Assembly (NCBI GenBank): GCA_027619595.1 | Contig: JAQCHP010000014.1 | Span: 1 to 56,472, forward strand | Direction: 5' to 3' | Origin: Planctomycetota bacterium | GTDB lineage: Bacteria > Planctomycetota > Planctomycetia > Pirellulales > Pirellulaceae | Length of the DNA: 56,472 nt | Shown: positions 7,053-40,093 of the stretch, in pieces | Position numbering within the stretch: the stretch's first letter is position 1 | Layout: every line of letters begins with the position of its first letter | The notes under the pieces: model-generated | What the model was told of the DNA's origin: nothing | What the model saw: the letters and a program-made list of their open reading frames with translations, nothing else | Database searches by the model: none | Translations under genes and position numbers: made by a program

Positions 7053-10000
7053 TTAAGCCTCTTGGACAACTCGCAGAAACAACTGCAAAGTAAATGCCGA
7101 GAGTTCGCGATCCACCGCCACAATCCCTTCGAGCGGTAAAAGTACAGTGTTCACGGCCAAAGTTTCGCCGGCGATATAGTCCATGTTTTCTAGAATAGCC
7201 TGCTGCAGTTCGTGACTCTCCGTAACAACTCCGATTTCAATTCGATCGGTATACAGACAATTGACTTCTTTTCTCCAATCCGCGATGATCCGAACCAACT
7301 CACGGGCGTACCCTTCGCGAAGCAACGAATCGGTAAGTTCGGTCGACAAGACGACCACGCACTGATCACCTTGTGCAGCGGCCCAGCCGTCTCTGGCTTG
7401 CAGTCGAACTTGAATGTCTTCGGCATCGAGCGTCACGGATTCCGATTCAACCAGCAAGGTGACACGCCCTTCCCGACGTAACGTTGCCAATAGTGTAGCA
7501 CCGTCCGCCTGCGCTAGGGCCACCTTAACCTGCGGAAGTAACTTTCCGACCCGTGGGCCTAAGCGTTTAAAGTTGGGCTGTACGAGATAGTCAATGTACT
7601 GTTCGGCATGCTGAATAAACTCAATTTGTTTTACATTAAGTTCTTCACACAACAATGCACTGTGCGCTTCCAGCCAAGCCTGGTGATCAAGTGAAGCCAG
7701 AACAACTTCAACTTTACCGAGTGGCTGCCGGACCTTTAATTTGGCATCCATACGGGCACTCCGTCCGAGCGAGGCAATTTCCCGTAAGAGTTCCATACGC
7801 GTCGAAAGCTCTGGATCGCAAAGCGATGCATCGGACGTCGGATAGTCACACAGGTGCACGCTCTCCAGGACATCGGACGAAGCTGACCGAGCTAAATTTT
7901 GCCAGATGGCCTCGGCCAAGAAAGGGGTAAACGGTGCGATGAGTTTTGTCACTGTCACGAGACATTCGTACAATGTCCAGTAGGCGTCGAGTTTCGACGA
8001 ATCGGTTTCTATGCCGCTCCAAAATCGATCGCGACTTCGGCGTACGTACCAATTACTGAGTGCGTCGACGAATGCATGAAGTCGTTGACAGGCTCCATAG
8101 TTGTCATAGGCGTCCATCGCCTCAACAACAAAGGCAATTGTGCCATGAAGCTCACTGAGAATCCATCGGTCGAGTTCGCCCCTCTGAGGAACCGCGCGGC
8201 GGGCGGGAGCGTTTGATAGTTCTTCCGGAGTCAACTGGCTCAGTGGACCGGGAAGCAGTCGACTAGGTTCGAAGCGGTCGATATTGGCGTAGATAACGAA
8301 GAAGCTGTAGACATTCCAGAGTCTCAACAAGAACTCCGGAATGCTGTCACGAATCGAAACTTCGTTGTACCGAATTGATGTCCAGGGTGGCTGATTAGCG
8401 AACAAGTACCATCGTAGGGCGTCGGCGCCATACCGGTCGAAGATTTCCTGTGGTTCGCGATAATTCCGCTTGCTCTTCGACATCTTCGTACCGTCTTCGC
8501 CCAACATCAGTCCCAATACGATGCAATTTCGGAACGGATGTGGAAACGAATTGTGAACTCCGGTAGTGTCGGGCTCGACGGAGTCGTCGTGAAACAAGAT
8601 CGTGCTGATCGCGAGGAGCGTATAGAACCAACCACGTGTTTGGTCAATCGCCTCGCTGATAAAGTCGGCGGGGAATTGTTGCTGGAACTCGTGTTCGCCT
8701 TGATGAGGATATCCCCATTGAGCGAACGGCATGGCACCCGAGTCGAACCAGCAGTCAATCACCTCAGTGACGCGTTGCATCGTCGCGCCGGGTGCAAATG
8801 GCGAGTCGTACGTGACGGCGTCGATATACGGTTTGTGGACGCGAAGATCATCAGGTAAATCTGGATTGGCTGCCTTGGCGTCGGCCCAGACATGAAGTCC
8901 CTTGACGCCGGGCTTGAGCAGCAACTCGTCGTATCTACCCACCGCCTCCATTTTTCCAGTCTGCTGACAGACCCAAATTGGCAACGGAGTCCCCCAATAG
9001 CGTTCCCGGGAAAGGGCCCAGTCGACGTTGGATTCGAGAAAGTTACCGAATCGACCTTCTTGGATGTGGTCCGGCATCCAGTGGATTTTTCGGTTGTTCG
9101 CCAGCATTTGGTCTCGGAATTGTGTTGTTCGCAAGAACCAACTGCGGCGAGGATATTGAATCAGGGGATCCTCTTCCGCACGCCAGCAGAAGGGATAATC
9201 GTGGAGAAACTGTTCTTGATGGTAGAGAATTCCGTCGGCACGCAATTGTCGAATAATATCGCGGTCCGCGTCCTTCACCCATTTTCCCTGGTAATCGGGA
9301 GCTTCGTCGGTAAATTTTCCATCCGGTCCGACAGCGCACAGCAGCGACGGCCCGGTGCCTTCGGTGAATCGTTCTTGCTGATCCAACAGCACCTGATAGT
9401 CCACCTCGCCGAACGCAGGTGCCTGATGCACGACACCGGTACCGGTATCCGTGGTGACAAACTCGGCCGGAACGACGCGCCAAGACACGAAGTCCGTTCC
9501 GCCCGCCTTGAGCGTTCCCCGTAAGTCTCCCGTCCGAGAATGGTAATAGGAGAATGGAGGCAGGTAACGCAATCCAATCAGCTCTTGACCGTCAAGGTGG
9601 CGAACTTCGCTGAGTTCACGTTTGGTTTTAGTCTTCATCGTCTCCAGAAGGTCAGTAGCGACGACAAGATTTTCCCCTAACTCAGCATCATGAACGACAA
9701 CGTATTTTACCCGAGGATGTACGGCAGCAAATTGATTGCTGGGCAACGTCCACGGAGTTGTCGTCCAAACCAAGAGACTGGTATTTTTCCACGCCGGATC
9801 AACAAGTGGAAACCGAACATAGACGCTTGGATCAGCCCCCTGCCGATAGCCTTGACCAACTTCACCAGCACTAAGCGCGGTTCCACCTTGTGCCCACCAC
9901 CAAACAATTTTGTTTCCCTGGTAGAGCAGTCCTCGCTCAAATAGTCTCTGCAGTGACCACCAAACACTTTCAACATACGACTGATGGTAGGTAACGTAAG

Positions 10001-34135: not shown

Positions 34136-34247
34136 CAATTTCGGCCACTGCCATATTGGCAACCACGCTTGTCGGTTCGTTTGACGGGCACCCACCCCAG
34201 TTGCGTAAGTCGTTGCTCTATAACAACTAACGAATCACGCCGATTCT

Positions 34248-34264
34248 TTGGCACGCCGATTGCT
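34248..34264 (+). promoter_or_regulatory. Sigma-54 (-24/-12) promoter for the chaperonin block
   Basis: TTGGCACGCCGATTGCT matches the sigma-54 consensus YTGGCACG-N4-TTGCW at every defined position, with GG and GC ten bases apart. Transcription would start around 34275, about 100 bases upstream of the groEL1 GTG. It lies in a gene-free gap and points towards groEL1. Sigma-54 promoters need an AAA+ enhancer-binding activator; I could not identify its binding site. No CIRCE element was seen near either groEL or groES. Confidence 0.75.
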
Positions 34265-34356
34265 ATCAGTGTGACGGATAAATTTTCTCTGCCAGCCCGT
34301 TTTTAAGCGGCGAGATTTGATACCCCAATCGTGATGAGTTTAAGTTTCTTGGTTGA

Positions 34357-36087
<1,731 letters not shown>

Positions 36088-36232: not shown

Positions 36233-36535
36233 ATGGCTAAGAAAGTGAAAATTCGCCCGCTAGATGATCGTGTTGTGGTGGAACCAACGGAAGCCGAAGA
36301 GACCACCGCGGGTGGAATCGTGTTGCCGGATACAGCCAAGGAAAAGCCGCAGCGTGGCCGAGTCTTAGCGGTTGGGCCCGGACGGCTACTCGACAGCGGC
36401 AATCGCGGCGAATTGTCGGTATCGGTGGGCGACGAAGTCATTTATGGCAAGTACGGCGGTTCTGATATCGAGATCGACGGCGAAGATTACAAGATTTTGC
36501 GAGAAAGCGATATTCTCGCTCGCGTGATTGCCTAA
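36233..36535 (+). CDS. groES: Co-chaperonin GroES
   Basis: A 100-residue lid protein of the GroEL chamber. I start at the ATG at 36233 ([18 protein letters not shown]), with AGAGG at 36216-36220. An ATG at 36221 directly abuts that site and would add four residues. The mobile loop is visible at [25 protein letters not shown], and the C-terminal part reads [32 protein letters not shown]. It lies 145 bases after groEL1 and 39 bases before groEL2, so the single co-chaperonin could serve both GroELs. Within the gap from groEL1 I see no terminator. Confidence 0.97.
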
Positions 36536-36574: not shown

Positions 36575-38194
36575 GTGCCAAAACAACTTTTGTTTGAAGA
36601 TCATGCTCGCAGCAAGATGCTGCAAGGTATCGACAAGTTGGCCAATGCGGTGGCGATCACCATGGGGCCCACTGGTCGTAATGTTATCATCGATAAGTCG
36701 TTTGGTGGCCCCACGGTTACCAAAGACGGAGTCACCGTTTCGAAAGAAATCGAGCTGGAAGACCGCTTCGAGAACATGGGTGCAAAACTCGTGAATGAAG
36801 TTGCTTCCAAAACGTCCGACCTTGCTGGCGATGGAACGACCACCGCTACGGTGTTGGCACGGGCCATCTTTCGCGAGGGAATTCGCAACATTGTTGCCGG
36901 TAGTAATCCGTCCGCCATTCGGCGCGGTATCGAAAAGGCAGTCGACGCTGCGGAAGAGTTCCTGGTGTCGATGGCGAAGCCTGTGTCCAGTAAATCTGAA
37001 ATCGCTCAGGTGGGTGCCATTAGCGCCAATAACGACCGATCGATCGGCGATTTACTCGCAGATTCTCTGGAAAAGGTCGGTAAGGATGGCGTAATTACAG
37101 TGGAGGAAGGCAAGACCGCCGAAACCACGTTGCGCGTTGTCGAAGGCATGCAGTTTGACAAGGGATTTATTTCCCCTTACTTCATCAACAAGCCAGCCGA
37201 TATGACTTGTACGCTCGAAAACGCTTTGATTCTGATCCATGAAAAGAAGATCAGTAATCTGCGTGATCTTGTGCCGATTCTCGAACGCGTTAGCCAAGTC
37301 GGTCGTCCTCTGTTGATTATCGCTGAGGATGTCGAAGGCGATGCACTCACGGCACTTGTCGTGAACAAGTTGCGTGGAGTCCTCAACATCTGTGCCGTGA
37401 AGGCGCCGGGGTTTGGCGATCGACGCAAATCGATGTTGGGCGATATGGCCGTCCTCACCGGTGGAACCCTCATCAGCGAAGATCTTGGTATCCAGCTTGA
37501 TAAGCTAACCTTGGAACATCTGGGCAGCGCCAAACGCATCACCGTCGATAAGAACGAAACGACGATCGTGGAAGGCGCTGGTAAGAAGGATGATATCAAG
37601 AAACGCATCGATCAGCTCAAGAACCAAATTTCGGATACCGATAGCGAGTACGATCGGGAGAAGCTCCAGGAACGATTGGCCAAGCTGACAGGCGGTGTGG
37701 CTATCATATCGGTTGGTGCGGAAACCGAAGCGGACATGAAGCAGAAAAAGGCCCGTGTTGAGGATGCTCTGCATGCCACGCGAGCCGCTGTCGAAGAAGG
37801 TATCCTTCCTGGTGGTGGCGTCGCCTTGTTGCGGTGCGAAGCAGCGGTGAGTACCGCTCGGAGCAGTGCGAAGGGTGACGAAAAAATTGGAGTTGATATC
37901 ATCAGTCGCGTGCTGGCGGCTCCGTTGCGACAAATCGCTGATAATGGTGGCATTGACGGTGCTGTCGTCGTCGATGAGGTTCGTCAACGCAGCAAGAACG
38001 AGGGATACGACGCTAACCATGCGGTGTATACCGATATGTTCAAAGCGGGCATTATCGATCCAGTCAAAGTGGTTCGCACGGCACTCAGCAATGCAGCCAG
38101 TATTGCCGGCCTGCTGCTGACGACGGAAGCCATGGTCACCAACTTTGATGATGACGATAAGAAGAAGCAGCGAGTCGAAGGTAGTATCCAGTAG
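36575..38194 (+). CDS. groEL: Chaperonin GroEL, copy 2 (no Gly/Met tail)
   Basis: A 539-residue chaperonin beginning at a GTG with AAGGGA about ten bases upstream. The equatorial motifs are intact: [36 protein letters not shown] and [13 protein letters not shown]. The apical region carries [15 protein letters not shown]. It ends [17 protein letters not shown], with no GGM repeats, unlike copy 1. Bacteria with several GroELs often use a GGM-tailed copy for housekeeping and others for special substrates; here the roles cannot be assigned from sequence alone. It is tightly linked to groES (39 bases) and followed by dnaJ after 170 bases containing a stem-loop. Confidence 0.97.
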
Positions 38195-38304
38195 TTTGAC
38201 ATCCCGTGACGGCGACCGTCCCGTAGTCGGTTGTCGGACGTGGATGGGATTTGCTCGCCCCTGCCAGCTTCCTGAGCAGTGGCGGGATTACATTGAAACA
38301 ACTC

Positions 38305-38335
38305 AAGAGCCACCTCAATTTGTTGGGTGGCTCTT
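38305..38335 (+). promoter_or_regulatory. 10-base-pair stem-loop between groEL2 and dnaJ
   Basis: AAGAGCCACC pairs perfectly with GGTGGCTCTT across an 11-base loop. It stands 29 bases before the dnaJ ATG. No T run follows, so it is not a typical intrinsic terminator. It could act as an RNA-processing or stability element, or partly attenuate transcription between the chaperonin and DnaJ-GrpE parts of the block. Confidence 0.55.
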
Positions 38336-38363
38336 GCCCTAGACGGGCCCGACGGATCGTAAC

Positions 38364-39503
38364 ATGGCCAGCAAGCGTGACTATTACGAAGTTCTGGGAG
38401 TTGCTCGTGGTGCTTCCGACCGGGACATTTCCAACGCTTACCGCAAGCTGGCCATCAGGTTCCATCCCGATAGCAACCCCGGGGATGCTGACGCCACAGC
38501 ACAGTTCAAAGAAGCTGCCGAAGCCTACGAAGTGCTCAGCGATTCGGCCAAACGCGCGCGATATGACCAGTACGGCCATGCTGGGCTGGACGGACAGAGC
38601 GGGCAAGGCTTCGATAACATGGAGGATATCTTCGAGGCCTTTGGCGATATCTTCGGAGGAATGTTTGGCGGCGGTGGTTCACGCCGCCGACGTGCTCACA
38701 AGGGCGCCGATATTCGCTGTGAGATTGAAGTCGAATTGGCTGAAGCAGCGCGTGGCACCAAGCGTGCCATCGAGTTCTCGCGTCATATCCGCTGTGATTC
38801 TTGTCAAGGCTCGGGCAGTCGCGCCGGTGCGACGCCACAACGCTGCAACCGCTGCGGCGGGCAAGGGCGAGTCGTGCAGTCCGCCGGAATCCTGCGTGTT
38901 CAGACGACCTGCCCGACGTGTCAGGGGGCCGGGACGATTATCTCCGATCCGTGCAGCAGTTGCTCCGGCCAACGGTTTACGAAGAAACGAGTAAGCATAG
39001 AGGCCCAAATTCCCGCCGGGATCGACGATGGAATGCATATCGCTCTGCGGGGCGAGGGGGAGCCAAGTCCGGACGGCGGGCCTGCCGGTGATTGTTACTG
39101 TCGCGTCGCCGTCAAGGCTCATCCACTTTTCCAACGGGATGGGAATGACCTTTTCCTGCAAATGCCCATAACCTACACGCAAGCTGTGTTGGGTGCCAAA
39201 CTCGAAGTGCCTACGTTGGATGGCCGTGACCAACTGCAAGTGCCGGCGGGAACTCAATCGGGTGAAATATTTCGCATTCGAACCCAAGGAATGCCGAACC
39301 CCCGTGGTGGCCCCCGTGGCGATCTGTTGGTCCAAGCCTACGTCGAAGTCCCCAAAAAACTAACGCCCCAGCAAGAAAAACTATTGCGGGACCTAGCCCA
39401 GCTAGAGCATGCTGAAGTGACTCCGCAACGCAAGACGTTTTTGGAAAAGCTGCGTGACTATTTTGTGTCCCACGAAGATAACCATCATACGGCAGGAGCC
39501 TGA
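38364..39503 (+). CDS. dnaJ: Co-chaperone DnaJ
   Basis: A 379-residue type I Hsp40. The J domain (1-70) contains the HPD motif (34-36) that stimulates DnaK ATPase. A Gly/Phe-rich stretch ([13 protein letters not shown]) follows, then four zinc-binding repeats: [24 protein letters not shown] and CSSCSGQR; the last deviates from CxxCxGxG at its final position. Two beta substrate-binding domains and a C-terminal dimerisation segment complete it. The start is an ATG at 38364. grpE begins five bases after the stop, so the two are translated from one message. dnaK itself is not in the window. Confidence 0.97.
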
Positions 39504-39508
39504 ACGAC

Positions 39509-40093
39509 GTGCCCCACGACGATCCAACTCCTTGGGAAAACATTCCCGACGACGAGAAACCCAACGCTACGAAGTCGACTTTGGACCCGTCTGCCAGCGA
39601 CGGTCCCACTACACCGTCGTCCGACGCAGTCATTGCCCAGTTGGAGTCCCAACTGCAGGAGGCTCAACAGCGGGTCCTTCGCGCTCAGGCGGAACTCGAG
39701 AATTCTCGTCGTCGGATGCGTCGCGAAATGGAAGAGGAGCGGCGATACGCGTCTCAATCGTTGATCGGTGATCTACTGCCAGTTCTGGACAATGTCTGCC
39801 GCGCCGTGGAGTCCGCCGAAAAGACCGATCCGGATAGCAGCCTGTTGCAGGGCGTACGCATGGTATCGCGACTACTGGAGGATGTACTGGCCAGACATCA
39901 TTGCCCACGAATTGTCGCACTCGGCAAAGAGTTCGACCCAACCGAACATGAAGCGATCGCGCAACAGCCCAGCGATAGCGTACCGACCGGGAACGTCAGT
40001 TTCGTGGCCCAAGAAGGCTTTCGGCTGCACGATCGGGTCGTTCGACCGGCACAGGTGATTGTATCCTCCGGCCCAGCTTCTGCCTCGCATTGA
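39509..40093 (+). CDS. grpE: Nucleotide exchange factor GrpE
   Basis: A 194-residue DnaK nucleotide-exchange factor starting at a GTG five bases after dnaJ. An acidic, disordered N-terminus (1-40) leads to a long coiled coil (about 40-85, IAQLESQLQEAQQRVLRAQAELENSRRRMRREMEEE). The conserved core SLIGDLLPVLDNVCRAVES and the C-terminal beta domain (FDPTEHEAIAQQPSDSVPTGNVSFVAQEGFRLHDRVVRPAQVIVSSG) follow. The usual signature PxxHEA...GYxLxDRVLRPAxV is clear. It acts with DnaJ and the DnaK encoded elsewhere. A small zinc-ribbon gene follows after 67 bases. Confidence 0.96.
   Translation: MPHDDPTPWENIPDDEKPNATKSTLDPSASDGPTTPSSDAVIAQLESQLQEAQQRVLRAQAELENSRRRMRREMEEERRYASQSLIGDLLPVLDNVCRAVESAEKTDPDSSLLQGVRMVSRLLEDVLARHHCPRIVALGKEFDPTEHEAIAQQPSDSVPTGNVSFVAQEGFRLHDRVVRPAQVIVSSGPASASH

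Follow-up and report, generated by a model that had tools for sequence, protein, structure and literature searches.

Chaperonins are normally under the control of sigma-32 or of HrcA and its operator CIRCE, and most bacteria use sigma-54 for other purposes. What, then, is a full-consensus sigma-54 promoter doing directly ahead of a chaperonin operon in a member of the Pirellulaceae? The stretch of DNA in which it lies, here called the window, comprises 56,472 nucleotides of contig JAQCHP010000014.1, and positions given below without a contig or locus name are positions in the window. From comparative sequence analysis we argue that the site at 34248–34264 very probably belongs to a heat-shock regulon under sigma-54, driven by an activator that acts from a palindrome upstream of it.

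A sigma-54 promoter upstream of groEL1

An earlier note on this DNA read the genes as groEL-groES-groEL-dnaJ-grpE and placed, about 110 bases ahead of the first of them, a site fitting the sigma-54 consensus YTGGCACG-N4-TTGCW throughout; Pfam matches and a consensus scan of the window bear out both readings. All five genes lie on the forward strand: groEL1 (34375–36087, GTG start; Cpn60_TCP1), whose product is 74–84% identical to its counterparts in relatives, groES (36233–36535; Cpn10), groEL2 (36575–38194; Cpn60_TCP1), dnaJ (38364–39503; DnaJ and DnaJ_C) and grpE (39509–40093; GrpE). Between groEL2 and dnaJ, a strong hairpin without a T-run (38304–38336, forward strand; fold energy −21.4 kcal/mol) may end or attenuate the transcript; dnaJ and grpE may or may not share that transcript and answer to the promoter described here. 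The two chaperonins differ at their C-termini: that of GroEL1 consists of a histidine stretch and a long tail of GGM repeats (35960–36084), and the corresponding part of GroEL2 (38130–38191) has no GGM tail.

The promoter itself, TTGGCACGCCGATTGCT at 34248–34264 on the forward strand, comprises a −24 (GG) and a −12 (GC) element, matches 13 of the 13 defined positions and lies 110 bp ahead of the groEL1 start codon (GTG, 34375). By the convention of counting 12 nt from the C of the −12 element, transcription would begin at 34275 (forward strand). No other site in the window has the full consensus. Matches with at most two mismatches number five, against 5.7 expected by chance, so the motif by itself is only suggestive. 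Genome-wide, the core TGGCAC-N5-TTGC occurs 40 times versus 11 for the reversed control. These 40 include six copies of the 15-mer TGGCACGAGATTTGC, which lie at or near contig ends (C32, C53, C107, C135, C173 and C197) and probably represent the border of a mobile element present in several copies.

Conservation provides a stronger argument. Among 30 groEL1 loci, the best upstream match to the consensus was 13/13 in 5, 12 in 15, 11 in 9 and 10 in 1, and just 2.4% of dinucleotide shuffles attained 11/13. A further 27 genomes all had a site of at least 10/13. This brings the element to all 57 relatives that were readable, a single contig having been too short, and neither the GG nor the GC varies among them. 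The conservation in related genomes that had been proposed as a check on the site is therefore found, and implies more than chance. The distance from promoter to start codon varies from 83 to over 300 bp among these loci, so the site is not a simple carry-over of an unselected stretch. As far as sequence can tell, the groEL1 chaperonin genes sit behind a sigma-54 promoter; the same genome encodes one rpoN and about 12 proteins with a strong sigma-54 activator (AAA+) domain.

A phased palindrome upstream of the promoter

Lining up the upstream regions on the −24/−12 box revealed an element that had previously been missed, the palindrome CTGCCA-TAT-TGGCA at 34148–34161 (no strand assigned), which starts 100 bp upstream of TTGGCACGCCGATTGCT, at about −120 from the predicted transcription start and thus within the 80–150 bp at which activator-bound enhancers usually lie. 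It matches at 10 or more of 11 positions in 50 of the 57 groEL1 promoters, and the more general form TGYCA-N3-TGRCA is found at 9 or more of 10 positions in 49 of 55, compared with 0.8 in shuffles. The distance from palindrome to −24 box clusters across relatives at 100, 110–113 and 121–124 bp, that is, in steps of about one helical turn. Such phasing is the anatomy expected of an enhancer whose activator works by looping, and we propose the palindrome as the predicted activator site. A clear palindrome was not found in a few groEL1 promoters (L046, L156 and L161), and on its own the palindrome is uninformative in the window's genome, where it occurs in 15 places versus 9 for the control.

Two more elements accompany the groEL1 promoters. 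An inverted repeat, CGTAAGT-N15-ACTAACG at 34204–34232 (no strand assigned), is centred at about −57. Its consensus is CGYAAGT-N15-ACTTRCG, and in 55 groEL1 promoters the mean score is 9.0 of 14 at this exact offset, whereas other offsets give a median of 5.5. The repeat is weak at targets other than groEL1, and is possibly a site for a bending protein or for a second regulator. Downstream of the predicted start, at about +15, lies CTGCCA (34289–34294, forward strand), which appears specific to groEL1: of 55 groEL1 promoters from Pirellulales, 51 have CTGNCA there, versus 0.6 in shuffles and 3 of 38 other targets.

The enhancer–promoter pair marks chaperone genes

We searched for the pair with the pattern TGCCA-N3-TGNCA, a gap of 75–105 nt and TGGCNC-N5-TTGC, using no information about genes. 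Across the window's genome and 40 relatives, 41 genomes in all, the pattern matched 25 times, versus once for the reversed control. Thirteen of the 25 loci lie upstream of groEL1, two upstream of a separate groES-groEL operon, two upstream of dnaK and six upstream of hsp20; the remaining two are not followed by a chaperone gene. Across the phylum, 49 of 292 Planctomycetota genomes had a match and none had a control match, a rate that is not evidence of absence elsewhere since the strict search misses many true sites: it recovers about half of the relatives, and a relaxed scan of groEL1 promoters recovers nearly all. Among 27 further loci from the phylum, 25 were upstream of groEL (12), groES-groEL (1), dnaK (5) or hsp20 (7), so that 48 of the 52 pair loci inspected lie directly upstream of one of these genes. 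The pair is nearly specific to chaperone genes.

Within the window's own genome, pair sites were located at groEL1 and at the second groES-groEL operon, on contig C20, where a slightly weaker pair (CTGTCAAATTGGCAG and TTGGCGCGCATCTTGCT) is separated by 98 bp; the dnaK and hsp20 sites come from other genomes. In a separate set of 80 groEL loci from named genomes, the pair was clear at 11 of the 21 Planctomycetota loci (including that of Blastopirellula marina) versus 2 of the 59 outside the phylum. The groEL loci of Poribacteria and Aegiribacteria (L360 and L294) combine a strong sigma-54 site and an appropriately spaced palindrome, the Poribacteria pair being TTGGCACGAAAATTGCT and GTGCCAAAATGGCGC, and the system may reach beyond Planctomycetota.

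The company that groEL1 keeps bears on the signal. The earlier note had suggested nutrient, envelope or phosphate state, which now seems unlikely: the same pair also heads dnaK, hsp20 and the second groES-groEL operon, and this points to heat or protein-folding stress.

A candidate activator and its kinase

Judging by gene content and gene order (seven genomes and two gene neighborhoods), the activator is probably a response regulator encoded on contig C261 of the window's genome (G000; positions 7287–8657), working with a neighboring soluble kinase. The regulator, a member of a clade that we call L012, carries the Pfam domains Response_reg (REC), Sigma54_activat (AAA+) and HTH_8 (a Fis-type helix-turn-helix). 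Just upstream is the gene for a soluble histidine kinase (HisKA plus HATPase_c) in which a domain search found no sensor domain; pnp and mutL flank the two genes, and a kinase–regulator pair near pnp recurs across the phylum.

Activator trees were built for G000, G029, G038, G043 and three distant, small genomes that carry the enhancer–promoter module (G252, G127 and G282). L012 was the only activator clade represented in all seven, with support of 99/95 (98/98 in a tree with more members). The small genome G038 also has the module and holds only six activator genes. The L012 profile matches 195 of 195 phylum genomes at 1e-120 or better, and thus offers no contrast between presence and absence (co-loss). 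Gene neighborhoods add to the case: dnaK directly follows the regulator gene in G111 (family f64) and in three genomes of family f55 (G094, G127 and G185). In G127 the gap between the two genes contains an enhancer variant, CTGACAATTTGTCAG, together with GTGGCACCACGATTGCT, and in G111 it contains the enhancer–promoter module itself. None of the other activator loci tested in this context adjoins a chaperone gene. The kinase beside the G127 candidate (L244:8903–9628, reverse strand) has an ATPase domain and no HisKA match, and may be a non-phosphorylating partner in that lineage.

The sigma-54 contact loop of the L012 clade reads GAFTGA in most of the phylum; it is GAYTDA in the window's genome and GAYTDA or GAFTDA in Pirellulales. 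The equivalent changes in NorR, G266D and F264Y, leave a protein that still activates sigma-54 and is relieved of repression (PMC2941729), so the altered Pirellulales loop is compatible with function, which falls short of proof. Five of the roughly 12 activators of the window's genome (L012, L013, L017, L018 and L020), an unusually high share, depart from GAFTGA, with the loops GAYTDA, GAFTDA, GAFTNA and GALGGA.

It is possible, although we consider it unlikely, that the same sigma-54 regulon answers instead to a GAFTGA-type protein of the L010, L014 or L015 family. These families (respectively a REC protein linked to a membrane kinase, a sensorless AAA-HTH protein of the argH–hemA region and an FHA-GAF protein) are all represented in G000, G029, G038 and G043; their loops still read GAFTGA or GSFTGA, where the L012 loop has changed in Pirellulales. 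However, they have no member in G252, G127 or G282, which carry the same enhancer, and for that reason we ranked them below L012; nor does any of their inspected loci adjoin a chaperone gene. At two L014-family loci (L180:5619–8699, L187:3598–6879), which lie in conserved gene order between argH and the ccsA-like and hemA genes, the activator adjoins a protein that seems to combine repeats with a degenerate receiver. L016 was considered for the 13/13 sigma-54 site near its operon and was dropped, having no counterpart in G038; this site (L186:7993–8009, reverse strand, on contig C111 of G000) precedes the operon, and some 230 bp separate it from a near-palindrome, CTGCCATTCTGGCCA. Autoregulation gave no route to the activator, as no inspected activator locus in G000, G029, G038 or G043 has a clear module. 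We retain the C261 regulator and its kinase as the candidate pair.

Other sigma factors and repressors

The sigma-54 promoter could also be real but secondary, adding a boost under special conditions while groEL is transcribed mainly from a sigma-70 promoter of the housekeeping or ECF type. In many bacteria several promoters serve groE, a basal level of the essential GroEL has to be maintained, and planctomycetes have many sigma-70-family proteins, as seen in sub-threshold matches to the RpoH model. No sigma-70-type consensus promoter was seen upstream of groEL1, in scans that are weak for planctomycetes, whose promoters are poorly known. The presence of the same element pair at every main chaperone operon argues instead for major control under stress, and we regard a secondary role as doubtful.

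Far less probable is that heat shock is run by a divergent sigma-32-like factor or by an analogue of HrcA/CIRCE, with sigma-54 serving nitrogen or envelope stress. HrcA was found in 0 of 60 relatives, although 7 of 14 control genomes were positive. None of 40 relatives had an RpoH above the NCBIfam cut-off, the best match scoring 165 bits versus 323.1; we read the sub-threshold matches as other members of the sigma-70 family. CIRCE (TTAGCACTC-N9-GAGTGCTAA), which the earlier note had rightly failed to see, matches upstream of groEL1 at best at 9 of 18 positions in the window and at most at 12 of 18 in relatives; in the set of 80 named loci it is present (at least 15/18) at 0 of 21 Planctomycetota groEL loci versus 32 of 59 elsewhere. 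An rpoH is stated to be present, and not regulated, in Rhodopirellula baltica (PMC2754498), and family models could miss a divergent analogue. A true RpoH is not supported by the family test in our 40 relatives, although a divergent analogue is conceivable, and an enhancer–promoter pair nearly specific to chaperone genes also speaks against assigning sigma-54 to other stresses. Together with the conserved site, the rpoN gene and the dozen or so activators, these absences support the proposal that sigma-54 and an activator have replaced control by sigma-32 or HrcA/CIRCE. A mere chance match to the consensus, for which the chance-level number of weaker matches in the window might speak, can be set aside, as the site recurs with invariant GG and GC in all 57 readable relatives and is linked to the enhancer.

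A model for heat shock in planctomycetes

In the model that we favor, sigma-54 RNA polymerase would be held in the closed state at the −24/−12 elements of chaperone promoters. Folding stress would activate the kinase–regulator pair, and the NtrC-family activator would bind TGYCA-N3-TGRCA, always on one face of the helix and about 100–125 bp ahead of the −24 box, form a ring, loop over and open the promoter with ATP. Opening would raise expression of groEL1-groES-groEL2, and the same pair of elements would drive dnaK, hsp20 and the second groES-groEL operon. With the enhancer shared among these targets, the cytosolic chaperones would rise together and otherwise stay low. The soluble kinase, which has no recognisable sensor domain, might monitor protein folding in the cytosol, possibly by way of a chaperone.

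Published expression data from R. baltica are in line with this model. The orthologues RB8966, RB8969, RB8970, RB8972 and RB8974 are induced by heat, and dnaK, hsp20 and clpB also rise, whereas the transcripts of rpoH, rpoE and rpoN do not change on heating (PMC2754498). A rise in chaperones at constant rpoN is what a sigma-54 activator model expects. We lean towards extending the model to all Planctomycetota, with some reserve: heat shock in the phylum would then depend on sigma-54 and one dedicated two-component activator at the TGYCA-N3-TGRCA enhancers of groE, dnaK and hsp20, in place of sigma-32 and HrcA.

The systems replaced offer obvious comparisons. HrcA/CIRCE has the same targets, groE and dnaK, and an inverted repeat near the promoter, but is a repressor system, and both of its parts are absent here. 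The sigma-32 (RpoH) regulon likewise has the same target genes and induces them jointly, whereas the promoters described here are of the −24/−12 type and no RpoH exceeds the cut-off. The sites of NorR have the core GTCA-N3-TGAC, which is the same geometry as TGYCA-N3-TGRCA. NorR differs from our candidate, a REC response regulator, in its GAF sensor for nitric oxide and in its targets. The nearest working parallel is HsfBA/lonD of Myxococcus, where direct activation of a heat-shock gene likewise depends on a histidine kinase and an NtrC-like response regulator; the kinase, HsfB, is of the hybrid type, and the reported targets are lonD and secondary-metabolite genes (PMC9109919). Unlike in HsfBA, the whole groE, dnaK and hsp20 set here shares one enhancer, and we liken the two systems in their working principle only.

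The sigma-54 class of promoter at chaperone genes is not itself new. A 2025 survey, in its accessible portions, reports an enrichment of predicted sigma-54 promoters at chaperone groups (GroEL, GroES, GrpE, DnaJ, DnaK and IbpA) in Planctomycetia, and a smaller one in Phycisphaerae; those portions contain no shared enhancer, spacing, activator or test for the absence of HrcA and RpoH (PMC12316311). Within the accessible parts of the literature searched, we likewise found no report of the shared enhancer, its helical spacing, the selection of chaperone genes by the pair alone, the absence of HrcA and RpoH or the candidate activator. A 2004 study of Pirellula sp. strain 1 by Studholme and Dixon, cited in that survey, may contain part of what we here call unreported.

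For the control of planctomycete heat shock, these results provide an answer that can be tested directly, in which sigma-54 acts with a specific enhancer and an identified candidate activator. Enhancer, spacing and promoter together form a tight sequence model that selects chaperone genes from unannotated genome sequence and gives few false matches. If the model is right, a core stress response of a whole phylum would have passed to the enhancer-dependent polymerase, with which leakage can be kept very low and one regulator can do the switching.
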